A stretch of DNA of 64,000 bases from Acetivibrio saccincola (GTDB lineage: Bacteria; Bacillota; Clostridia; Acetivibrionales; Acetivibrionaceae), in NCBI RefSeq assembly GCF_002844395.1, contig NZ_CP025197.1, positions 744,001 through 808,000 of the forward strand, written 5' to 3'. Each line of letters begins with the position of its first letter. The first letter of the stretch is position 1. Shown here piece after piece: positions 45,218 through 62,244 of the stretch. Position numbers and translations under genes: made by a program. The notes under the pieces were generated by a model. That model had not been told where the DNA came from. It worked only from the letters and a program-made list of their open reading frames with translations, and searched no databases.

Positions 45218-45252
45218 AACACAAGTCCTGCCAAAGAGGCAGGTTTTGTGTT
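45218..45252 (+). terminator. Hairpin between WXG100 pair and effector, module F
   Basis: AACACAA/TTGTGTT and CCTGCC/GGCAGG stem as in module A. Confidence 0.55.
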
Positions 45253-45308
45253 ACTATTTTCATTTAATGGTGAAGACCATAAAAAAACATAAAAAAGGTG
45301 GAATAAAT

Positions 45309-47657
45309 ATGTCATATATGTCTATTGACTTAGATTCTTTAAAAGATATTGAGAAAAGAGTCGGTTCCCTTTCAAAAAGCCTTGAACAGATAAAGAACAG
45401 TCTTTCTACCGTAAGGAGAAATATAGATTCGACAGTCCGGAACAGAAGCGGGATAGACAGCAGTATGTCAAGCCTTATCAGAGAAGTCGGCGAAAGAGAA
45501 CGTATAATGAATAATGTAAAACAATTTTTAAAAGAAACAATTAAGCAATATGAAGATATGGAAAAGGAGCTTAGAAGAGAATCAGACAGAATAATTGAAA
45601 ACAGCACTCCAAAGACCGGTATAATAAAAAGCATATTAAACGGTTTAAAATCAATTGGTAAAAAACTAGGAAATCTTTTAAAGACAATTGCAAAAAATTC
45701 AATACTTTTAAGTCCTATAATAATTGGAACGGCAGTACGTTCAATAGGAAAAATGCTGATAGAGAGAGGTTTTATAATAACCAATAAACCAATTGAAATT
45801 GTAAAAAGAGATGATATAGGTTTACCGATATTAAATGGAATATTAAGCTATAATCCGGATGAGTATAGCCCATATGTGGCGCTTTTGCAGAAAAGGTTAA
45901 TTGAACTGGGCTATGGGGACGGTCTTGAAGTCACCGGTAAATTTGACTCAAAGACACTTGATGCGGTAAACAGATATAAAGAGGATTATGGACTTTGGAA
46001 TTTTGGTGAGTATGAAGGCAAGGTGGGAGAAACTACCTGGAATCATTTATTTAAAAATCAGAAAGTACCTTATCTTACAATTGACAATGTAGAAAAAGAT
46101 GGTATGGGTATACCGGTTTTAAGCGGCATACTAAGCTATAATCCATGGGAATATAGCATTTATGTAGTATTTTTACAAAAAAGATTAATTGAATTAGGGT
46201 ATGGAGACGGTTTAGAGGTAAATGGAATATTTGACTCAAAAACACTTGAAGCGGTAAACAGATATAAAGAGGATTATGGACTTTGGAATCATGACGAATA
46301 TGAAGGCAAGGTAGGAGAGACAACCTGGAATCATTTATTTAAAAATCAAAAAGTTCCGTATATAAAAGGAACAAATGAATTTTATCCTGCAGAAAATTCT
46401 ACTCAGAATAACAGTGTTTCAAACAGTTTTAAATATAACTGGACCGGTAAGTGCGTTACTGAAGAGTTTAAAGAAAAGGTTCTTGAAATAAGCAAAAAAC
46501 TAAAAATTAATCCGGATGATTTAATGGCAGTTATTGCTTTTGAATCTAACTTTGATCCATCAGCTCGTAATCCTGCTTCAGATGCCACCGGGCTGATTCA
46601 GTTTATACCTTCAACAGCTGAGAGATTAGGAACAACGGTAGAAGAACTGAAGAATATGTCAGCAATTCAACAGTTGGATTATGTATATGAGTATCTAAAG
46701 ACATACTCAGGAAGAATGAATGATATATACGATGTTTATATGGCTGTATTTTTGCCTATAGCAGTTGGAAAAGACAATAATTATGTACTTGGAGTTAAAG
46801 GTTCAGAAGAGTGTTTTCCCGGTACAGACTTAACAAAAGGTAAAGTTTATAAAAACAATTCAGGTTTAGACATTAACAAGGACGGTATTATAACGAAAGA
46901 AGAAGCAATTCAAAGGGTGATAGCTAAAAGGAATCAATATGAAATAATAAATTCTGTAAATGAACCAACCGGAAATGACAGTAGAACAGGGGATACAAAA
47001 ATAAAAGAAAACTCAAATTATAATGTTACAAATACTGTAGCATATCAAGCGGTAGTGCCAAAATATGTATATGAATCAGGAGAGAGGACACCGGAAGCAT
47101 ATAATTTATTGATAGATCAGTTTATGGTTGAAACAAATCCCAGATATAAACCAAGAAACGGAGCTACGTTCTGCAATATATATGCATGGGATGTTTCAGT
47201 TGCAATGGGAGTCGAATTGCCAAGGTTTGTAGAAATTAATGAAATAGGAAATTTGGAGGATGCAACCGGTAAAGCTATTGGACGAAACCTTGGCAGTGGA
47301 TATATATTATATCAAGATGTTGCAAATGCAAATGCGACAGAGCTTGATGCAAATAGGCTGGCAACTTGGTTAGATGCTCAGGGTGCAAATTATGGATGGA
47401 GAGAAATCAGTGCAGAAGAAGCTCAAAGAAGGGCTAATCAAGGATATATGACAATATCAGTAGTAAAAGAACCAGGAGGCATAGGTCATGTTCAAGTAGT
47501 CAGACCTACTCCGGACGGAAGTGATTATGATCCGAGCAAAGGAGTTTATATATCGCAGGCAGGTGGAAGTTCAGCAATTAAAAACGGTGTTTATTTTCTT
47601 GAACATTATAAAAGTGAGAGTTATTATAATAGATATAAGTTTTATACACATGATTAA
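45309..47657 (+). CDS. Effector F: T7SS-type N-terminus, two PG-binding repeats, SLT transglycosylase, papain-like domain
   Basis: 782 residues from ATG 45309 (AAAAAGGTGG before it; the open frame begins at 45,246), the only long multi-enzyme effector with an intact frame. Export domain 1-95, hydrophobic segment, peptidoglycan-binding repeats about 174-350, then an SLT-type lytic transglycosylase from about 376 (AFESNFDPSAR with the Glu, TGLIQFIPST). A Ca-type loop DINKDGIIT lies near 520. The C-terminal domain (about 574-782) has a Cys in TFCNIYAWDV and a His in GIGHVQVVRP and matches the detached domain of effector A. It would cut glycan and probably peptide. Confidence 0.8.
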   Translation: MSYMSIDLDSLKDIEKRVGSLSKSLEQIKNSLSTVRRNIDSTVRNRSGIDSSMSSLIREVGERERIMNNVKQFLKETIKQYEDMEKELRRESDRIIENSTPKTGIIKSILNGLKSIGKKLGNLLKTIAKNSILLSPIIIGTAVRSIGKMLIERGFIITNKPIEIVKRDDIGLPILNGILSYNPDEYSPYVALLQKRLIELGYGDGLEVTGKFDSKTLDAVNRYKEDYGLWNFGEYEGKVGETTWNHLFKNQKVPYLTIDNVEKDGMGIPVLSGILSYNPWEYSIYVVFLQKRLIELGYGDGLEVNGIFDSKTLEAVNRYKEDYGLWNHDEYEGKVGETTWNHLFKNQKVPYIKGTNEFYPAENSTQNNSVSNSFKYNWTGKCVTEEFKEKVLEISKKLKINPDDLMAVIAFESNFDPSARNPASDATGLIQFIPSTAERLGTTVEELKNMSAIQQLDYVYEYLKTYSGRMNDIYDVYMAVFLPIAVGKDNNYVLGVKGSEECFPGTDLTKGKVYKNNSGLDINKDGIITKEEAIQRVIAKRNQYEIINSVNEPTGNDSRTGDTKIKENSNYNVTNTVAYQAVVPKYVYESGERTPEAYNLLIDQFMVETNPRYKPRNGATFCNIYAWDVSVAMGVELPRFVEINEIGNLEDATGKAIGRNLGSGYILYQDVANANATELDANRLATWLDAQGANYGWREISAEEAQRRANQGYMTISVVKEPGGIGHVQVVRPTPDGSDYDPSKGVYISQAGGSSAIKNGVYFLEHYKSESYYNRYKFYTHD

Positions 47658-49177: not shown

Positions 49178-50305
49178 GTGCGGCCGGGCAAGGCCGTGGA
49201 GTACAGCGGGTGGAAACCCCGCCGAGTAAACCTTAAGCCGAGGAACTCGTAGCGAGTCTTGGAGTATCAGTAGTGATATTGATGCTTAAGCGTAGACAGT
49301 TAGGCAGTAGGCCCGAAGTCCGCAAGGGCGAGTGATTGAGCCTCGAAAATATTACAAAGTCGGGAAGGCCGACTGGCTCACAAACCAGGAAGGCAGCATT
49401 GCACCAAGCGTTAACGGCGAGCGTGATGTGGCTTCCCCGGGGTCAAAGAGCCGGGCATGTTGTACAAAGACTCCACGGTAACCCGGGAGACCCTGACGAT
49501 TCTTGCGAAAGCAAGTATGATGTACAACCGATAAAAAGGAAGGAAGTCAAAAGATTGTCAGGGAGTCGGATAACCTAATAGTATTAATGATGCCGGGTAA
49601 TGCCGGAGGAGAGAAGGAGGTTACGTACAATCGCTCTTGTTAAGGAAACATTAACTACACACAGGGGTAGGGATTGATGGAAACGAAATTGACAAGATAT
49701 GAGCAAGATTTTCTTGACTTTTCTTATGGTTTCAGACCAAACAGGAGCTGTCATGATGCGCTGAGAGCAATAAACAAAACAATTATAAAAGATAAGATAA
49801 ACTATATAGTTGATGCAGATATAAAAGGATTCTTCAACAACGTTGACCATGAATGGATGATGAAGTTTATAGGACACAGGATAGCAAACCCAAACATAAA
49901 AAGGCTGATAGTGAGATTTCTAAAAGCAGGGATAATGGGGAGAGGTAGATTTGAAGCAACAGACAAGGGTACAGCCCAGGGTTCAGTAGTTTCACCGATA
50001 TTGGCAAACATATATCTTCATCACTATTACGGAATTACGGACAATTATCCGATGTTGCAGCAATTTAAATATGAAGTGATAAAGATATTATTTAAGTGGC
50101 TGAACAGAAGGAGTCAAAGGAGAAGTTTTACAAAAGAAAAATTCCAGAAATACCTTAGGTTAAATCCACTTCCGAATCGGAAAATTTATGTGAACATAAT
50201 GGGTTAACAGCGAAAGCGAATGATTGTATGAGGAGCCGTATGCCTTAATTGGGCACGTACGGTTCTGTGAGGGGGCAGATATGGCAAGATATCTGTCTAC
50301 TCGAC
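49178..50305 (+). mobile_element. Degenerate group II intron (bacterial type)
   Basis: The 5' end reads GTGCGGCCGGGCAAGG, as expected for a group II intron boundary, followed by about 480 bases of GC-richer, structured RNA (domain I-IV). A short reverse transcriptase remnant lies inside. Near the 3' end, GAGCCGTATG and CGTACGGTTC form a domain V hairpin, then a domain VI-like stem and the end CTACTCGAC. The element is about 1.1 kb where about 2.4 kb is usual, so most of the ORF is gone. RNA ends may still be folded. Confidence 0.8.
49674..50207 (+). pseudogene. Group II intron reverse transcriptase/maturase, internally deleted
   Basis: It keeps YGFRPNRSCHDAL and FNNVDHEWMM (RT blocks) and GTAQGSVVSPILANIYLHHY, then jumps directly to the maturase tail (LFKWLNRRSQRRSFT, NPLPNRKIYVN). 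The YADD catalytic block and most of domain X are absent, as is the N-terminus. It cannot be an active reverse transcriptase. Confidence 0.8.
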
Positions 50306-50373: not shown

Positions 50374-51237
50374 ATGTCAACATTATCAAAAGAACAGATA
50401 AAAGCAATAGTTAAGGGAAATAATTTCCAAAGCGTGACTGATGTCACGAACTATCTTAAAGACATTATACAAGAGCTTATGGAAGCTGAATTAGAAGAAA
50501 AGCTTGGTTATGCTAAAAGAAGAACGTAGTGCAAAAAATACCGACAACTGTAAAAATGGTTATTCTACTAAGACTTTAAAAAGAGAATTTGGAGAAGTTG
50601 AGATTCAAATTCCAAGGAACCGTAAAGGAGAGTTTGAGCCTAAAATTATACCTAAATATCAAAGAAATGTTTCCGGCATAGAAGAAAAAATAATACCTCT
50701 ATATGCAAGGGGCATGTCAACCAAGGGATATTGGAGAGCAGCTAAATGAACTTTATGGGGTGGAAATATCCGCAGAAATGGTTAGTAGGATTACCGACCG
50801 TATTATTCCTGAAATAAAAGAATGGCAACAAAGACCCTTAGAACCTATATATACATTTTGTTTTATGAATGCCATTCATTATAAAGTAAGAGATGAAGGA
50901 AGAATATGTAATTGTACAGCCTATGTGGTTATTGGCATTAATGTTGAGGGATATAAAAACATACTGGGTATATGGATTGGAGAAAATGAATCATCAAAAT
51001 TCTGGCTTGGTGTAAGTCTACAAAGCTATTAATGAAGAGGTTGCCTTAGAGAAGCTTTATGAATTAAAGGATAAATGGGGTAAAAGCTATCCTTTTGCGA
51101 TACGGAGCTGGGAAAATAACTGGAATGTACTAAGTCCATTCTATAAGTTCCCGGAAGAAATCCGAAAGATTATCTATACAACTAATGTCATTGAAGGATT
51201 ACACCTTTTAAAGAAATGTTTTTTCCTGAAGTCATAG
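50374..51237 (+). pseudogene. IS256-family (Mutator-type) transposase remnant
   Basis: The start is good (AAGGAGG, ATG 50374, then MSTLSKEQIKAI). The protein then continues in other frames: GYSTKTLKREFGEVEIQIPRN, MQGACQ...GVEISAEMVSRITD, and finally WGKSYPFAIRSW and PEEIRKIIYTTNVIEG. There are at least three shifts, an internal deletion after FWLG, and the first catalytic Asp block reads FMNAIHYKVR with Asn instead of Asp. The 3' end is missing. Dead element. Confidence 0.8.
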
Positions 51238-51640: not shown

Positions 51641-51805
51641 AAAGAACGGAGACCGTGTAGCAGTAAGTGAATATACAAATTTCTCTTGTAGTTTTATAAG
51701 TTAGTGATGTATTTTTATAAATTAATGATGCTATCATCAGTTAAGGAATCACACAGCAGAAATTATGAACTTTTTTTTCGTCCAATGGTATTTTTATTAT
51801 TTTCA

Positions 51806-51834
51806 TTGACACATTCATATATTATACATATAAT
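51806..51834 (+). promoter_or_regulatory. Consensus sigma-A promoter of the ferredoxin/ArsR operon
   Basis: TTGACA (51806-51811), 17-base spacer, TATAAT (51829-51834): both hexamers are perfect. Confidence 0.85.
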
Positions 51835-51860
51835 ATAAGTATATTATAAAATACTTATAT
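51833..51860. promoter_or_regulatory. Palindromic operator overlapping the -10 box
   Basis: ATATAAGTAT (51833) and ATACTTATAT (51851) are perfect 10-bp inverted repeats with an 8-base spacer, placed at the -10/+1 region. This is the position of a repressor site; the ArsR protein encoded as third gene is the likely ligand. Confidence 0.7.
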
Positions 51861-51923
51861 ATAATTATTTCCTAATCATTATTCTATATAGACAATAAAT
51901 AACTAACAGAAAGGGGAAATAAC

Positions 51924-52121
51924 ATGAAAAAAGCAGTAGTAAATCAAACAGAATGCGTGGCTTGCGGAGTTTGTGAGAAAGTTTGTCCGCGTCAGGCCAT
52001 AACCATATTTCATGGAATTTACGCAAATGTCAATGAAGATTTATGTGTCGGATGTAAAAAGTGTGAGAAAACCTGTCCTGCTTCAGTAATTCAGGTTTTA
52101 CAAAAGGAGGCTGCGTCATGA
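51924..52121 (+). CDS. 2[4Fe-4S] ferredoxin
   Basis: 65 residues with two cluster motifs: CVACGVCEKVCP and CVGCKKCEKTCP. RBS AAAGGGG. An electron carrier, first gene of the operon; its stop overlaps the next ATG (ATGA), so they are coupled. Confidence 0.9.
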   Translation: MKKAVVNQTECVACGVCEKVCPRQAITIFHGIYANVNEDLCVGCKKCEKTCPASVIQVLQKEAAS

Positions 52122-52723
52122 AAAAATGGAATGAATATTTATGGATATTCTCTGCAGTATATTTGGTTTCAGGTTTTTTCAATATTTTATTTGCCTGGAT
52201 AGGGATGATTTGCTTTGTTACTCCGTTATTGCTTTCCATATTAGGTAAAGGTAAAATATATTGTAACAGCTATTGTGGAAGGGGACAGTTATTTGAATTG
52301 TTAGGAGGCAGGTTAAATCTATCTTCAAATCGCAACATTCCTGCATTTATAAGAAGCAAATGGTTTCGCTACGGCTTTTTAGCATTTTTTATGACTATGT
52401 TTGGTATAATGGTTTTCTCTACCTATTTGGTTTATAATGGAACTAATAACTTGAAAGAAGTTGTTACCCTTTTATGGACAATTAAACTTCCCTGGAATTG
52501 GGCATATACCGGTACGGTATCACCTTGGATAGCCCAATTTGCTTTTGGATTTTACAGTGTTATGCTTACGTCTACAATTTTGGGACTTTTAACAATGTTT
52601 TTCTTCAAACCCCGCTCATGGTGCGTTTATTGTCCCATGGGTACAATGACTCAAGGGATAAGCATGCTAAAGTACAGAAGGATGGTGAATCAAAATGGAG
52701 CAGCAAGCAAAAGAAATAGCTGA
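52118..52723 (+). CDS. NapH-like membrane protein with Cys motifs
   Basis: 201 residues, about four membrane segments. CNSYCGRGQ near residue 49 and CVYCPMGTM near residue 170 are the CxxxC..P motifs of NapH/RnfA-like polyferredoxin membrane proteins, but there are no full ferredoxin domains; these may be supplied by the ferredoxin encoded before it. Together they would pass electrons across or along the membrane. Its end overlaps the arsR-type gene by 29 bases. Confidence 0.75.
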   Translation: MKKWNEYLWIFSAVYLVSGFFNILFAWIGMICFVTPLLLSILGKGKIYCNSYCGRGQLFELLGGRLNLSSNRNIPAFIRSKWFRYGFLAFFMTMFGIMVFSTYLVYNGTNNLKEVVTLLWTIKLPWNWAYTGTVSPWIAQFAFGFYSVMLTSTILGLLTMFFFKPRSWCVYCPMGTMTQGISMLKYRRMVNQNGAASKRNS

Positions 52724-52985
52724 ATTGCTTAAAGTTATGGCAAATCAGCATAGATTAATGATATTATGCTATTTGATAGAAAGACCAATGAATGTTAGTG
52801 AAATACACGAAAAAATACCTGTTATATCTCAATCGGCTTTATCTCAAAATTTAGCCATGCTAAAGGCACACGGTATTTTAGACTCTAACAAATACGGTCT
52901 TCAGAACGTTTATCATATAAAGGATGACAGGATTAAAAAGATTATTCAAGTACTCAGAGAAACCTATTGTAACCCAAAAGTATAA
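52695..52985 (+). CDS. ArsR/SmtB-family repressor, persulfide-sensing (BigR/SqrR/YgaV) type
   Basis: 96 residues, winged helix. A Cys at position 25 in RLMILCYL and another at 92 in ETYCNP match the two-cysteine pattern of BigR/SqrR/YgaV, which form a polysulfide link between these residues; no metal-type CxC is present. DNA recognition helix: SQSALSQNLAMLK. Autoregulation at the operator 51,833-51,860 is likely. Confidence 0.8.
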   Translation: MEQQAKEIAELLKVMANQHRLMILCYLIERPMNVSEIHEKIPVISQSALSQNLAMLKAHGILDSNKYGLQNVYHIKDDRIKKIIQVLRETYCNPKV

Positions 52986-53058
52986 GAGGCAATTCATATG
53001 CTTTTACCTGATAGGAAAGTGAATCCTTAATGGTATAAGTTACTGGGGATAGAATAGG

Positions 53059-53166
53059 TTTAATACAGAGAAAGATGTGGAGTTGGATGAGGTTATTCCG
53101 CCGGAGATATTATGGCACGGTACAGGAGAGAAATACGTAAGTTCCATTGATGTGTGTCAGTGGTAA
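53059..53166 (+). pseudogene. KptA (RNA 2'-phosphotransferase) N-terminal fragment
   Basis: 35 codons encode ELDEVIPPEILWHGTGEKYV and then a stop. IPPE(V/I)LYHGT is typical of Tpt1/KptA. No start and no C-terminal half (catalytic Arg and His) are present. Small remnant between the ArsR gene and the IS4 remnant. Confidence 0.5.
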
Positions 53167-53173
53167 AATTTAA

Positions 53174-53866
53174 TTACCCGGTTTCGGGAAAGAAAATTCC
53201 CCACCTGTTTACAAACTTTTGCTTGTAGATTAACATTATGTTAATCAACTTTCGCAGGAAACAACTGATAGCTTTGCCTTTACGTTTCCTGACAGTTCGG
53301 TATATCTCGCGTAATGATTTCTTTTCACCATTGAACGTGTAGTAAATCTTTGGCGTGTCTTTTAACATGGCTATTACATTAAGATTCATTTTGCAAATCT
53401 TGATAATAGTAGCCGGAAAGGAGAACCAACTGTCAAACAGGACGTATTTTGCCTTAATGCCCACAGACATAGCTTGTTTCAGCATTGAAAGAGCAGATTC
53501 CGGCGAAGTAGTCAAGGCATTTTGACGACGTTTAAACCCAACAGTTCTTTTATCTATACATTGTCTCGCTGGATTGATACGAACCTTTGAATTTGCTGAA
53601 CTTAAGAGGTTAAAGGCTACAGGAACAAATGAATTGCCGTCTGTCCAACCAAGAGTAAGCATACGAAAGCCTTTTTTGTTTTTATTACCGTCAGCATGAT
53701 CTTTGACCCAGCATAGGAGTTCTACTGCTTTGCTTCTTGTCCTGCTAAAGAAGGAATCGTCTATCACAAATGCATCAGCTCGTTCATCTGTTGTTAGTGG
53801 AGCAATATGATGGTTTATAACCTTAGCAGAAAGTAACAAGAGAAATCTCTGCCAGTTGATATGCAT
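53174..53866 (-). pseudogene. IS4-type transposase, main part
   Basis: 230 residues with DDE-type blocks: FVIDDSFFSR and YVLFDSWFSFP. The frame is shifted from its N-terminal part at about 53,870-53,890; the missing join would read TFAKDVAYRFLNSMHI. A short Lys/Arg-rich tail ends the gene. No inverted repeats of the element were found. Confidence 0.7.
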
Positions 53867-54886: not shown

Positions 54887-55914
54887 GTGAAAAAAACTCA
54901 GAAGTTTACTCAGTGTAGTACTATGTTGTATATTAGTTTTAGGTTTTGCAGTTGCAACTAAAAATGTTTTTGCATAAGTTCCTATGGAGCGGAAAATTGT
55001 TGTTTTTAAAAACAAAGTAAATGATACACAAATGGAGTTTGTCCTAAAAAAGCATGGGGCAGTCAAATTAAATCAATTATCCTCTATTAATGGTGTTGTT
55101 GCTAATGCACCTAAAAAAATAAGCTCAAGGATGAGCAAGAAGTATTATACATAGAAAGCGACTATGTCTTGTCCATTGAAGGAAAAAAGCCATCAAAACT
55201 AGGTGTAGTGTCACCACCAGAAGAAGTCATTCCGTGGGGCATTGAATGGATGGGAACACCTGCACAGTGGGATACAAATACAGGTAAAAGCATAAAAGTA
55301 GCAATTATTGATACAGGAATTGATTTAAACCATCAAGACCTAAAAGTAAATATCAAAGGCGGCTTTAATGCTTTTCAAAAAAAAGAAAGCACCAAATGAT
55401 AACAATGGACATGGAACTCATTTAGCAGGAATTGTTGCTGCCGCCCGTAATGGTGTAGGTGTTGTCGGTGTGGCACCTGATGCGGAACTTTATGCGGTTA
55501 AGGTTTTTGATAGTAGCGTAAATGGTTATGTTTCCAATGTGATTGAAGGAATTAATTGGTGTATCAAAAACAAAATAAACATTGCAAATATGAGTTTTGG
55601 TATGCAATCTAGCTCCAATGCAATGCATGACATTATTATTCAGGCAGATAAAGCAGGAATTAAAATGGTTACAGCAGCCGGAAACAACTATGGTGGTACA
55701 GCACTATATCCAGCAGCCTATCCAGAAGTAATATCAGTAGGTGCAATTGATAAGTCTGGCAATGTCGCAGATTTTTCAGTCCAACAAAATATAGATATTT
55801 TTGCATACAGGGATTGATATCTATTCAACCTATAGTAATGATGTCTATTCGAGGATGAACGGTACTTCTATGGCTACACCGCATGTAACAGGTAAGATGA
55901 TACTAAAGCAATAA
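54887..55914 (+). pseudogene. Secreted subtilisin-like (S8) serine protease, multiply frameshifted
   Basis: GTG 54887 with GGAAGGAG upstream. After an A7 tract the shifted frame gives a signal peptide (SLLSVVLCCILVLGF). A propeptide-like part (RKIVVFKNKV, VVANAP) follows, then the catalytic blocks in different frames: IIDTGIDLNH (Asp), NGHGTHLAG (His), GTSMATPHVTG (Ser). At least four shifts separate them; 55,169-55,399 and 55,368-55,817 are the longest open pieces. The triad itself is preserved, so decay is recent. It precedes the C39-like gene. Confidence 0.8.
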
Positions 55915-58136: not shown

Positions 58137-59912
58137 GTGAGTGTAGCAAAAATCAAAAATCTACAGAATATTTACCAAAGGGTGTTAGAAGAGATAAAGG
58201 TTAATAAAAATATACCTATAAAGATATGCAAGGTAATAAAAAGTCCTATGGTTCTAGGTTTTTGGAATCCAATTCTTTTATTGCCGGATATAGATTTTAC
58301 AAAGGAACATTTACAAATGATACTGCGCCATGAAGCCATTCATATAAAACGCAGGGATATTTTATACAAGACAGTGATTTTATTTGCCAGGGCAGCTCAT
58401 TGGTTTAATCCTTTAGTACATATTATGTCGGTGGAAGCAAACAAAGATGTAGAGTTATCGTGTGATGCTGCAGTGGTTAAAAACCAAAATGTGGATTACC
58501 GAAAGGACTACAGTGAAGCAATACTTATGTCAGTTTATAGCGGGAACAGGTCAAAGGCTGTTTTTTTAACGTATTTTGGAGGAGGAAAGAAAATGCTAAA
58601 AAAAAGGTTTGCTAGTTTATTTGATTTGCGCAAAAAGAAAAAAGGTGTAATTTCACTGATACTTGTAGTTTTACTCATAGGTATCATGGGATTATGTATA
58701 AGCTGCAGTAAAACAGCGGAAGCAGGAGATGAGACAAAAAACAGAGTAGACGAAAATCATAAAACGGGAGCGGAAAGTGATGGAAATACCGGTGCAGAAG
58801 GTAAACGGACCATAGTTTATGAAAATAAAGTTCTTGGATTTTCATTAGAGCTGCCAGATGAATGGGAGGACAGGTATGTAGTAGAAGAATGGGAAAACAG
58901 TATTGGTTTTTTCAGCAAGAAAGTATACCAGCAATATAATGGTATGGGTCTTTTATTTACCATAGTCAGGGATGTAGGAGAATTAATAACAGAACAAGAT
59001 ATGCAGCAGGCTCCTCAGATGCAGCAAATTCTTCTTCAAGGCAATGGCTATACCTATTATATAAGGTGGCCTTCTGATGTTCAGTCACCTATGGAAGAAG
59101 AATTGAGCGATGATTATATGGCTATGTCCAGACAGGTTTCAAAAGTGGCTAAGAGTATCAGCCTTTTGGGAGATGAAAAGCCAAAGGCGTCAAACGAAGG
59201 ATTTAAGGTAGTGGGTTCAAGTTTCTTTACTGTAGAAATACCGGACAATTGGGATATCAAACAAGAAGCACTGTCTGAACCTAGGTGGTATATTTATGAT
59301 GAGACCGGAAAGGGGGATGTAGGTGCAATTGCTTTAGTTCCATATGACTTTGACGGCAAGTCGGAAGGAAAATATAAAGACAGCTATGGTGAAGTCCCTG
59401 TGCTTTTGTATGATGATGAGACATTAAGGGGAGCTACAATATTTTTTGATGTAAAACGTGTTGATAAGGATATAATTGATAAGATAAAAAACAGCTTTAA
59501 GTTTGTAAGCGGTCCTTTTAATGTAGTTGATTTGCAGACACAAGGGGAACAGTATCTTGCCCGGGGAGGCAAAAAAGTATTCGGAAAGATAGAAGATTTT
59601 GAAATGGAAAAAGGCGAACCTGTGGCTGTTAAAATAAATGTGATGGAGTTTATTCCTGATGGAACAGGCGATAATAATCCTAACGGTTTTCGTATTGAAG
59701 TTTTAAATAAAATTGAAACTTATCCATTGGATATCGGAACGCAAATTGTACCGTTGGTACCTCCAAATAACAGTAACTATGGTTTTTATGAAATGCCGTT
59801 ATTAGACAGTAGCTTTTTAAAAAAATACGATAATTGCAAGCATTTTTACTATGATTTTATTATCGGAAGTGATGGAAAAGTAAAAATTGTTTTTGGACGC
59901 TATGTGCCATAA
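58137..59912 (+). CDS. M56 (BlaR1/MecR1-like) peptidase, N-terminally truncated, with extracellular domain
   Basis: 591 residues. The zinc site HEAIH is in LRHEAIHIKRRD, with CDAAV downstream, and FGGGKKMLKKRF then a membrane segment (about residues 180-197). The extracellular part holds two related domains (GFSLELPDEWEDR and FFTVEIPDNWDI). Normal members have 3-4 membrane segments before HExxH; here only about 50 residues precede it, with a stop just upstream. No blaI-type repressor is adjacent. Probably not functional as a sensor. Confidence 0.7.
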   Translation: MSVAKIKNLQNIYQRVLEEIKVNKNIPIKICKVIKSPMVLGFWNPILLLPDIDFTKEHLQMILRHEAIHIKRRDILYKTVILFARAAHWFNPLVHIMSVEANKDVELSCDAAVVKNQNVDYRKDYSEAILMSVYSGNRSKAVFLTYFGGGKKMLKKRFASLFDLRKKKKGVISLILVVLLIGIMGLCISCSKTAEAGDETKNRVDENHKTGAESDGNTGAEGKRTIVYENKVLGFSLELPDEWEDRYVVEEWENSIGFFSKKVYQQYNGMGLLFTIVRDVGELITEQDMQQAPQMQQILLQGNGYTYYIRWPSDVQSPMEEELSDDYMAMSRQVSKVAKSISLLGDEKPKASNEGFKVVGSSFFTVEIPDNWDIKQEALSEPRWYIYDETGKGDVGAIALVPYDFDGKSEGKYKDSYGEVPVLLYDDETLRGATIFFDVKRVDKDIIDKIKNSFKFVSGPFNVVDLQTQGEQYLARGGKKVFGKIEDFEMEKGEPVAVKINVMEFIPDGTGDNNPNGFRIEVLNKIETYPLDIGTQIVPLVPPNNSNYGFYEMPLLDSSFLKKYDNCKHFYYDFIIGSDGKVKIVFGRYVP

Positions 59913-60037: not shown

Positions 60038-60169
60038 ATGCAGTATATGAGAATTTTTTCAAGATATAAACACAGGGAAGAGAACAGTAACGTGTACATT
60101 TACTTCTTAAAGACGGATGATTACGAGGTAATGTTTGAAAGTAAAAACTTTAACCTTGAGTTAGCGTAA
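60038..60169 (+). CDS. Small reading frame ending at an ISLre2 edge
   Basis: 43 codons (MQYMRIFSRYKH, later FLKTDDYEVMFESK) ending at TAA 60167. No RBS seen. The last codons overlap the start of the ISLre2 left end, so it could be the C-terminus of an older gene cut by the element. Confidence 0.25.
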   Translation: MQYMRIFSRYKHREENSNVYIYFLKTDDYEVMFESKNFNLELA

Positions 60170-60280
60170 AGTTATTGTAGGGAATGAGACATAAAATACC
60201 ATATATAATTGAAAAGAAGATGACATCCTGTTAAGATATTAATTAAGCAAAAATAATAAATAGAAAGGATGACATCTTCT

Positions 60281-61720
60281 ATGTATAATAGTATACAACA
60301 TTTTAATGAATTTGGGGTAAAAAGAATTGAAAAAAAGATAAAAAATTTTATTGAAGAAGGAAAAGACTTAGCTGATCTTGTTCTTGGTCTAAAAGAAGAT
60401 TTATTTAAACTTGGACGCGATATACTTAAAGAAGTGCTTGAAGATATGGATGAATATTTCCGTAACTGTGAAATAAGGAAACAGTATTGGGAAATTATAA
60501 GAAAAGATAAAACAGCTATTTTAACGACATTTGGAACACTAAGTTATAACAGGACATATTTTAAGCATAAGGAAAATGGTAATAGACAACACCTAGTCGA
60601 CAGGATTGTAGGTGTAGAACCACATGACAGAGTAAGTGCCGATGTTGTAATTAATGCAATAGATGAAGCAGCTGACAGCAGCTACAGAAAGGCAGGAGAA
60701 AAGGCGACATATATTGATGAAATCAGCAAACAAGCAGTGATGAATAAAATACATAATATTGAAATAGTTGAGCCTGAAATAAAAGTAGATAAAAAGAGAG
60801 AAGTAAAAATATTGTATGTTGAGGCCGATGAGGACCATGTAGCATTACAACAAAAAAGTATATTGAGACAGAATGAGAAGGGCAAGAGAAATACAATTAT
60901 GCCAAAACTTGTATATGTGCATGAGGGAATTGACTTTGAAAAAAGTAATAAGAAGAGAAAAGTATTAAAGAATGTTCGATATTTTGGGGGAGTGTATAAG
61001 AATTCAGAAGATTTGTGGCTTGAAGTATCGGAATACATATATAAACAATATGACGTTGATTTTTTAGAGACGGTGTATATATCAGGAGATGGGGCGTCAT
61101 GGATAAGGCAAGGAGTTAACTGTCTTTCAAAAAGTAAATTTGTACTTGATAGATACCATCTTCAAAAATACGTAAGAGTTGCGACCACACATTTAAATGA
61201 TGAAGCAATAAGCCAAGATTTACAGGAGGCTTTGAATTTATCTGATAAAAAAATGCTAACAAAGGTTTTTAAAAAGATAATTGAAAAGACAGGCGATAAT
61301 GAAAATAAAATAAAGGCTATAAAAAATGCAAAGCGATATATTTTAAATAATTGGGATGGTATAGAAATAAGGTCAAACAGAGGAATAGTGGGTTGTAGTG
61401 CTGAAGGTCATGTGAGTCATGTATTTTCATCCCGTTTAAGTTCAAGACCTAAAGGCTGGTCGAGAAAAGGTGTAGAAAAGATGTCAAAGCTAATAATATA
61501 CAAGAAGAATGGCGGTAAGGTATATGACATAGTTATGGCACAAAAACAAAAAAAGTTAGCATCTAGTAGGCAAGAAATTCAGGAAAAATTAATTAAGGAA
61601 TTAAAGAAGTCATCAAACAGGTATGAGAGTGTATGGAATAGTAATTTAACTGTTATTCATAAGGGGTGTAAAACTGGTTTATATAAAGAATTAAGGCGTA
61701 TTATAGGTATATGCGGATAG
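60281..61720 (+). CDS. ISLre2-family transposase (UPF0236)
   Basis: About 479 residues, intact. Family blocks are YVEADEDHVALQ (near 200), YISGDGASWI (near 270), DRYHLQKYV (near 290) and [18 protein letters not shown] prefer ATG 60281 because the ATG at 60269 overlaps AAAGGA. It moves the element by a DDE-like mechanism (family inference). A decayed copy is at 54,070. Confidence 0.85.
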   Translation: MYNSIQHFNEFGVKRIEKKIKNFIEEGKDLADLVLGLKEDLFKLGRDILKEVLEDMDEYFRNCEIRKQYWEIIRKDKTAILTTFGTLSYNRTYFKHKENGNRQHLVDRIVGVEPHDRVSADVVINAIDEAADSSYRKAGEKATYIDEISKQAVMNKIHNIEIVEPEIKVDKKREVKILYVEADEDHVALQQKSILRQNEKGKRNTIMPKLVYVHEGIDFEKSNKKRKVLKNVRYFGGVYKNSEDLWLEVSEYIYKQYDVDFLETVYISGDGASWIRQGVNCLSKSKFVLDRYHLQKYVRVATTHLNDEAISQDLQEALNLSDKKMLTKVFKKIIEKTGDNENKIKAIKNAKRYILNNWDGIEIRSNRGIVGCSAEGHVSHVFSSRLSSRPKGWSRKGVEKMSKLIIYKKNGGKVYDIVMAQKQKKLASSRQEIQEKLIKELKKSSNRYESVWNSNLTVIHKGCKTGLYKELRRIIGICG

Positions 61721-61861
61721 GGATGAGGTAATAATAAAGCAAAAATTACGGGAAAGTTTACAAGTAAGCCTATCCAATAGGAATTATACATATCTGGAAA
61801 AAAGACAAAGAAAAAGAAAAAACATAAAAAAAGAAAAAGAAAAGAAAAAAGCAAAACTTTA

Positions 61862-61945
61862 GTACCATGACCCGCGGAGCCCTACTACTTGTCAAGGCCG
61901 GGCTTTGCCCGCTTGTTTTAGCCTTGACAAAATGGAAAATGGTAC
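61862..61945 (+). other. Nested hairpin in the ISLre2 3' region
   Basis: An outer stem GTACCAT/ATGGTAC, a middle stem GTCAAGGC/GCCTTGAC and an inner stem CGGGC/GCCCG can form one cruciform of about 84 bases. It is GC-rich compared with its surroundings. Possibly a terminator or an RNA structure of the element. Confidence 0.55.
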
Positions 61946-62244
61946 AATAGAAATACTTTTTTCTTTTAAAAGTAGCGTTAAAATGTGAAGGAACATAGAT
62001 AACAAAACGTACTAATTTGTCACAAGTATTGAGTAAAATGAATTCTTTATAGAAAGAAAGAGTTATATGGTATAATAGACAATAAGTTAGAGGAATTATA
62101 AAAGAAAATAAGGCTCAAAATGATGTAAAACACTTTCGTTACTAAGAGACCGTTATTTGAAATAGTTGCACAAATAAAAAATGGGATGCCATCTACTTTT
62201 CTTTTTCCTACAATAAATTGACGCTATCTAACCTTGACAATAGT

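Follow-up and report, generated by a model that had tools for sequence, protein, structure and literature searches.

Which genes, and which chemistry, does an ArsR repressor of the persulfide-sensing kind control in an anaerobe? The question is raised by a three-gene locus of Acetivibrio saccincola, which we analysed within a 64,000-nucleotide stretch of the chromosome (NZ_CP025197.1, positions 744,001 to 808,000; henceforth the window, numbered from its first letter). The locus encodes a ferredoxin (fdx), a NapH-like membrane protein and an ArsR-family regulator (arsR). Gene order, sensor class, the cysteine pair, the linkage between operator and regulator, and the neighbourhood and fusions of the fdx-NapH pair were established by computation. 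We lean towards reading the regulator as a BigR/SqrR-type autorepressor of a ferredoxin-driven membrane path that would reduce thiols or sulfane sulfur. The operon is probably switched on when this persulfide-type repressor meets reactive sulfur. The features of the locus are as follows.

51806..51811, + strand: −35 hexamer TTGACA, exact in 29 of 32 aligned operator-bearing promoters, with 1-2 mismatches in the other 3
51829..51834, + strand: −10 hexamer TATAAT, 17-bp spacer from the −35 hexamer
51833..51860, no strand: inverted repeat ATATAAGTAT-N8-ATACTTATAT with perfect 10-bp arms, operator core with a footprint in relatives
51837..51861, + strand: 25-bp operator match AAGTATATTATAAAATACTTATATA, 4 mismatches from the family seed
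51924..52121, + strand: fdx, 65-aa ferredoxin with two C-x2-C-x2-C-x3-C motifs
52118..52723, + strand: NapH-like membrane protein, 201 aa, PF12801, with CX3CG (Cys49, Cys53) and CX2CP (Cys169, Cys172)
52695..52985, + strand: arsR, BigR/SqrR-class regulator, 96 aa, with Cys25 (alpha2) and Cys92 (directly after alpha5 in the model)

The fdx and NapH-like reading frames share 4 nt and the NapH-like and arsR frames share 29 nt, as expected for a single operon. An original prediction, made from the sequence alone, had taken the operon genes to encode an electron carrier and a membrane protein, and the Pfam matches agree: 4Fe-4S domains in the ferredoxin and Fer4_5 (PF12801; 30.5 bits, cut-off 22) in the membrane protein, with HTH_5 in the regulator. 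The TTGACA-17-TATAAT promoter that it proposed is present at 51806-51834. It also placed a palindrome over the −10 region; the perfect arms are there (51833-51860), but the overlap is confined to the final two bases of the −10 hexamer and the bulk of the palindrome lies downstream. In dinucleotide-preserving shuffles of 51650-51923, TTGACA-N16..18-TATAAT arose in 3 of 2000 and a perfect palindrome with 10-bp arms in 39 of 2000. The upstream stretch is AT-rich (23% GC) and the palindrome alone is a chance event at a rate of about 2%, so that the cross-species footprint described below is what carries conviction.

The regulator groups with the persulfide sensors HlyU, SqrR, YgaV and BigR, a class assignment that is well supported by sequence comparison. 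The seven best distinct hits in a search of PDB sequences were HlyU (3JTH, 4K2E, 5ZNX), SqrR (13CT, 6O8K), YgaV (3CUO) and BigR (3PQJ), with E values from 3e-15 to 1.1e-11; the eighth was NolR. The 96-aa product contains exactly two cysteines, the Cys25 and Cys92 of the original prediction, and both lie opposite cysteines in all five printed PDB alignments. In an AlphaFold2 model with a mean predicted local distance difference test score (pLDDT) of 90.6, Cys25 lies within helix 18-29 and Cys92 directly follows helix 78-91. Structural searches with this model returned SqrR (including its tetrasulfide state), HlyU, YgaV and BigR as the top 11 matches, with Z scores of 15.2-16.1. The zinc sensor CzrA came next at Z 15.1, which is a tie; the fold alone is thus not decisive, and the sequence bears the weight of the class assignment. 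Cluster 4 of a published sequence similarity network (SqrR/BigR/YgaV/HlyU) is marked by one cysteine in alpha2 and one in alpha5 (passages of PMC10509353), and the window ArsR has cysteines at both places. The BigR/SqrR/YgaV type originally proposed is thereby borne out by sequence, predicted fold and cysteine pair, as far as such comparisons reach.

The cysteine pair is also conserved among the linked ArsRs. Cys25, Cys92 and Tyr91, which precedes Cys92, are invariant in all 35 linked ArsRs (33 distinct sequences), and two further members of the same ArsR clade (L016 and L017) carry both cysteines. None of 23 other, lower-scoring ArsR homologues checked, taken from the A. saccincola genome and related ones, has the pair; three of these homologues have Cys25 alone. 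All 24 family members scanned match the NCBIfam BigR model, and they also match five other, generic ArsR models.

We then asked what this regulator would bind. At least 586 stretches in genome contigs are related to the NapH-like protein; the best 80 were kept and, together with four loci from related genomes and the window itself, make up the 85 loci compared here. A motif close to AAGTATATTAGTAATTACTAATATA recurs, by eye, 5' of fdx in the arsR-linked loci, in one of them (L066) within a perfect 32-bp palindrome, and AAGTATATTAGTAATTACTAATATA served as the operator seed for the footprint. The seed was drawn from the arsR-linked loci themselves and hence favours them, but matches elsewhere are rare: with up to 7 mismatches, the 25-bp seed was matched in 32 of 34 arsR-linked loci, 3 of 52 unlinked loci and 8 of 680 dinucleotide-block shuffles, and with up to 5 mismatches in 28 of 34, 2 of 52 and 0 of 680, respectively. 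One locus without an fdx match (L085) is out of this count, and two loci on the same contigs as others (L043 and L044, with L052 and L095) are counted here and in the cysteine-pair tally and omitted from the promoter alignment. Two linked loci gave no match: the contig of L039 ends 28 nt upstream, and L054 has no site in the 148 nt shown. Among the three unlinked matches, the contig of L097 stops just past the NapH-like gene, L049 falls in a tree clade (support 100/100) whose other rows, 11 of 12, are all arsR-linked, and L060 lies at the 7-mismatch edge.

When 32 operator-bearing promoters (30 arsR-linked ones plus L049 and L097) were aligned on the motif, the operator blocks reached 0.85-1.42 bits per column and the −35 block 0.65, with at most 0.33 elsewhere, a profile that anchoring on the motif forces in part. 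TTGACA stands exactly 20 bases 5' of the seed start in 18 of the 32 promoters, a spacing that puts the −10 element inside the motif, and the motif contains the −10 in many more distant relatives (TTGACA-N17-TATATT). Most promoters of the clade that includes the window have a distance of 31-32.

Within the A. saccincola genome, the fdx promoter is the only site that matches a 23-mer operator pattern with at most one mismatch. The other sites, at 3 mismatches, are the mirror register of the fdx-promoter site and one more; the backward control gave 5. No site of the pattern in this genome adjoins its own rhodanese or CcdA-type genes. A wider regulon search of 20 genomes with the 23-mer at up to 3 mismatches found 66 matches against 49 in the backward control, and matches at this level are therefore mostly background. 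On a tree of the NapH-like protein, counted over the 53 rows with an ArsR or Crp label, six changes are required to account for arsR linkage, and none of 500 shuffles was as low; the well-supported branches force one change alone. The footprint and the single strong site in the own genome lead us to read ArsR as a local autoregulator of its own operon. The operator assignment is well supported at the level of sequence, and ArsR very probably controls the fdx-NapH-like promoter.

The targets of this regulator form a widespread clostridial pair. By the taxonomy of the tree, the relatives kept are Bacillota, except one metagenome-assembled genome of the Synergistaceae (L081) and one unplaced record (L124), and they include Clostridioides difficile, Butyricicoccus pullicaecorum, Blautia and Clostridium species. 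A ferredoxin match lies beside the NapH-like gene in every locus but L085, all 84 of these ferredoxins carry two C-x2-C-x2-C-x3-C motifs, and the two genes are fused into a single reading frame in L059 and L108. The NapH-like family has 58 invariant columns in 51 sequences, and CX3CG and CX2CP are kept in all 85 proteins. Its distribution is patchy: 33 of 291 sampled genomes of the class have the gene at E ≤ 1e-30, comprising 29 at E ≤ 1e-84 and four that are weaker or cut by a contig end. ArsRs of the same clade (at least 49% identity) were found in 9 of 99 other genomes searched, by a NapH-like gene in seven and by ccdA-tlpA in two. None was found in four genomes of the same genus, one of which is just 55% complete.

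The membrane protein resembles the NapH/NosR/RdhC (PceC) module in its PF12801 match, membrane helices and two cysteine motifs. That module passes electrons to extracytosolic partners (passages of PMC5928378 and PMC8238504). It differs in carrying two CX3CP motifs (PMC5928378, in part) and a flavin mononucleotide (FMN) domain and/or C-terminal 4Fe-4S sites. Two CX3CP motifs were not found in the family studied here, in which all 85 members have CX3CG and CX2CP instead, and this sets it apart as a separate branch. In the 201-aa protein of the window, Pfam at E 0.1 detected no FMN domain or C-terminal 4Fe-4S pair. The ferredoxin is encoded by a separate upstream gene, a further difference from NapH/NosR/RdhC.

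The neighbours of the pair may indicate what it acts on. Genes for thioredoxin, thioredoxin reductase, rhodanese, CcdA, TlpA or CoA-disulfide-reductase-like (CoADR-like) proteins lie within 3 kb in 21 of the 85 loci and at 4 kb or more in 3 loci; the census covered 447 kb of near sequence and 473 kb at 4-8 kb. These families were chosen after their recurrence had been seen, and a Pfam comparison of randomly drawn genes is less biased. We drew 148 of the 297 genes lying no farther than 1.8 kb away and 148 of the 364 that lie more than 4.2 kb away (at least 95 aa, with those above 900 aa undrawn and fdx, NapH and ArsR genes excluded). The near genes comprised 11 with a Crp-type helix-turn-helix, 7 thioredoxins, 6 Pyr_redox_2, 4 rhodaneses and 3 DsbD_TM, and none of these five families is among the 25 commonest of the far genes, where the last family listed has 2 members. 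Related loci inflate all of these neighbourhood counts.

Recurrent gene orders include fdx-NapH-ccdA-tlpA (L107, L115 and L121), fdx-NapH-trx with a convergent Crp/Fnr gene (L065, L087 and L104), and fdx-NapH-arsR followed by a rhodanese (L068 and L110; by eye, the L068 rhodanese has a lipoprotein-like start). Rhodanese genes occur within 3 kb in 6 of the 85 loci, three of the 32 with arsR and three of the 53 others. In two genomes (G055 and G056), an ArsR of the same clade heads an arsR-ccdA-tlpA cluster with an operator-like site at 6 mismatches upstream (L045, 9109-10722, − strand; L046, 9987-11599, + strand). These ArsRs have Cys25 and Cys92, and no NapH-like match was found at either cluster. 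The tie of the ArsR clade to thiol and sulfur genes comes mainly from these two clusters. Neighbourhood comparison, which the original prediction had named as a check, thus places thioredoxin, rhodanese, CcdA/TlpA and CoADR-like genes near the fdx-NapH pair, but mainly in loci without ArsR and as an association only; it makes a stronger case for a thiol/sulfur role of the fdx-NapH family as a whole than of the operons with arsR.

Regulator genes within 1.5 kb were counted as well: 22 of the 85 loci have a Crp/Fnr gene and 32 have arsR, four of them having both, and 35 have neither. Members of a single Crp/Fnr-type family (c3) stand no more than 3 kb from the NapH-like gene in L069, L074, L078, L079 and 16 more loci, mostly on the opposite strand; they occur where arsR is missing, L098 excepted. 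Crp-type neighbours of ~225 aa together with neighbours of ~565 aa had led us to guess at an Hcp/HcpR nitrosative-stress module, which was dropped when the 565-aa family proved CoA-disulfide-reductase-like. Two members of this family score below the curated cut-offs, and a search for the CoA-disulfide reductase family in 10 genomes gave matches in all 10, none above the cut-off, an outcome that has no bearing on association. The A. saccincola genome encodes, elsewhere on the chromosome, a 561-aa protein that by eye resembles the neighbouring CoA-disulfide reductases and has a terminal rhodanese-domain match, and also one CcdA-type protein.

Among characterized systems, BigR of Xylella, Agrobacterium and Acinetobacter is like our reading of the window ArsR in having a two-cysteine switch, lying in the operon that it represses and acting at the −10 region (passages of PMC5823870). 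The contents of the operons differ: that of BigR has a sulfurtransferase/sulfur dioxygenase (Blh) and a TauE-type protein and is O2-dependent, whereas that of the window has a ferredoxin and a NapH-like protein and occurs in anaerobes. In structure, SqrR of Rhodobacter capsulatus comes closest, with Z 16.1 for its tetrasulfide state (6O8N) and Z 15.9 for the reduced one (6O8K). It is tied to sulfide-dependent photosynthesis (PMC10509353, in part), and its deduced site, ATTC-N8-GAAT (quoted in a passage of PMC9774250), is unlike AGTATATTA-N2-AATTACT. YgaV of Escherichia coli, alike by class, acts at the RNA polymerase site to repress the operon that encodes it and forms a Cys31-Cys98 tetrasulfide (PMC9774250, in part); its operon partner is the rhodanese-like YgaP rather than a ferredoxin or NapH-like protein. 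HlyU, too, is converted to a tetrasulfide by persulfide and no longer binds DNA (passages of PMC10509353). The CcdA/DsbD and TlpA system shares some of the neighbourhoods described above and, in G055 and G056, the ArsR clade, but its membrane component belongs to a different family (PF02683) from the NapH-like protein. CcdA/DsbD draws its electrons from thioredoxin rather than ferredoxin.

We propose the following mechanism, in which we infer the inducer, the repression itself, and the direction and end-point of electron flow. An ArsR dimer on the AT-rich palindrome at the −10/start region would, judging from the footprint, block transcription of fdx-NapH-like-arsR. Rising sulfane sulfur (persulfide or polysulfide) would form a polysulfide bridge between Cys25 and Cys92 and take the repressor off the DNA, as class membership suggests; the bridge is modelled on SqrR, HlyU and YgaV. 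The operon encodes a 2[4Fe-4S] ferredoxin and, as its partner, a small membrane protein of several helices in which two pairs of cysteines are invariant. Most likely the two proteins would draw electrons of low potential from the ferredoxin pool of fermentation and deliver them, at or across the membrane, to an acceptor of the thiol/disulfide or sulfane-sulfur kind, an electron path that may work with thioredoxin-, CcdA/TlpA- and rhodanese-type proteins. This could allow the reductive clearing of reactive sulfur in an anaerobe, where an O2-dependent persulfide dioxygenase cannot work. A broader and doubtful proposal, which we advance only tentatively, is that the Fdx-NapH-like pair forms a hitherto unrecognised membrane reductase for thiols or persulfides, driven by ferredoxin, as a reductive equivalent in anaerobes of the SQR/persulfide-dioxygenase pathway; low-potential electrons from fermentation would travel via two cysteine pairs embedded in the membrane and end on sulfane sulfur or on carriers of the TlpA/rhodanese type, with the pair under a persulfide-sensing ArsR or a Crp/Fnr regulator across the clostridia.

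Several observations weigh against a persulfide-induced reduction path. The window operon holds no sulfur enzyme, and 64 of the 85 loci have none of the chosen thiol/sulfur families within 3 kb. Such neighbours accompany 3 of 32 arsR-linked loci (L068, L098 and L110) against 18 of 53 without arsR, so that by neighbourhood this ArsR is only weakly linked to sulfur enzymes. Of the 53 loci without arsR, 18 have a Crp/Fnr gene no more than 1.5 kb away, which together with the 35 loci that have neither regulator implies that the fdx-NapH pair is not bound to one signal. An ancestry-corrected test of operator against arsR, which skipped 7 loci with too little flanking sequence, found two supported independent pairs (8 on unsupported branches), too few for significance. 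The BigR model of NCBIfam (NF040642) is the best-scoring one for the window ArsR at 69.4 bits, far from the equivalog cut-off of 155, and the protein is thus not BigR itself. The structure model of the NapH-like protein has a pLDDT of 63, and a Foldseek search with it gave no usable fold match.

The Crp/Fnr genes near loci without arsR also suit a general dithiol switch, in which stress from oxidants, electrophiles or disulfides would join Cys25 and Cys92 in a plain disulfide, with the operon serving thiol repair or an oxygen-damage response. The thioredoxin, thioredoxin reductase, CcdA/TlpA and CoADR-like neighbours fit disulfide repair equally well, and in vitro BigR is also modified at its cysteines to sulfenic acid or with glutathione (passages of PMC5823870). 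Persulfides nevertheless react with HlyU, a member of the same class, whereas H2O2 and glutathione disulfide do not (PMC10509353, in part), and the six rhodanese-bearing loci point to sulfane sulfur; we consider a general dithiol switch rather unlikely. Alternatively, the persulfide switch may be right and its target another: the Fdx-NapH-like pair could feed an unlinked reductase, or mature or repair Fe-S clusters, and be induced as sulfide stress harms metal centres. NapH-like modules serve many different oxidoreductases (passages of PMC8238504), the window operon lacks a terminal enzyme, and the scarcity of thiol/sulfur genes at arsR-linked loci noted above fits as well. The recurrent thiol/sulfur neighbours of the pair and the arsR-ccdA-tlpA clusters under the same ArsR clade speak against this alternative, which we hold to be possible without favouring it.

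It is very improbable that the regulator is a metal- or metalloid-sensing ArsR/SmtB repressor, even though it matches the generic metalloregulator model NF033788 above its cut-off (66 versus 55 bits) and shares its fold with CzrA and SmtB (Z up to 15.1). Neither an alpha3 CxC nor a D-x-H-x10-H-x2-[EH] signature in alpha5, which we take to be the SmtB-type metal site, was found in 31 of the 32 linked ArsRs searched; the exception, L059, was flagged for CxC-spaced cysteines in an over-long N-terminal extension of the called open reading frame (ORF). The window ArsR is without metal-site signatures and the targets are not transporters, and metal sensing was set aside. We give equally little credence to decaying mobile cargo that has lost its function in this strain. 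The operon does lie between intron and insertion-sequence (IS)-like remnants, a 5'-truncated duplicate lies 138 kb away, and the ArsR clade was not found in the same-genus genomes searched; yet promoter, operator and the full set of three ORFs are intact, and the NapH-like protein keeps the invariant residues of its family.

The surroundings of the operon bear the marks of mobile elements. A group II intron (49213-50305, + strand) lies near it, with Rfam matches at 49213-49452 and 50231-50305 (RF02005 and RF00029) flanking a 177-aa reverse-transcriptase-like ORF, and is apparently shortened. By eye, IS-like debris extends over ~50504-51218 on the upstream side, and a transposase-like ORF (53174-53866, other strand) follows on the downstream side. 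The truncated second copy (C1:658288), 99.5% identical over 622 bp, retains arsR intact but only the end of the NapH-like gene. As it is without the operator promoter, it could give extra repressor from another promoter. It matches window 52533-53154 to L006 10127-10748 (C1 ~658.1-658.7 kb), its ArsR is 100% identical, and by eye it adjoins a pair of transposase-like ORFs. Further paralogous segments link the two arsR-bearing regions (window 58172-58707 with L006 11993-12528, 90% identical; window 60160-62228 with L006 16544-18613, 97% identical and inverted), and one of the segments overlaps an M56/BlaR1-like ORF (by eye). Elsewhere in the window, also by eye, 45246-47657 (+ strand) holds an 803-aa ORF with a coiled N-terminus, peptidoglycan-binding-like repeats and a transglycosylase-like region, and 55169-55817 (+ strand) a subtilisin-like protease split across two overlapping frames.

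Persulfide-sensing ArsRs have been described beside sulfurtransferases, rhodaneses and sulfur transporters (passages of PMC10509353). A ferredoxin with a NapH-like membrane protein would be a new kind of target for this known kind of sensor, and we found no description of an fdx-NapH-like-arsR operon in the titles and abstract openings returned by our searches of open-access literature. Strict anaerobes encounter much sulfide and cannot use O2-dependent clearing. To our knowledge, how they handle reactive sulfur is poorly known. The fdx-NapH-like-arsR module, with its own operator, offers a concrete and conserved candidate for this task.

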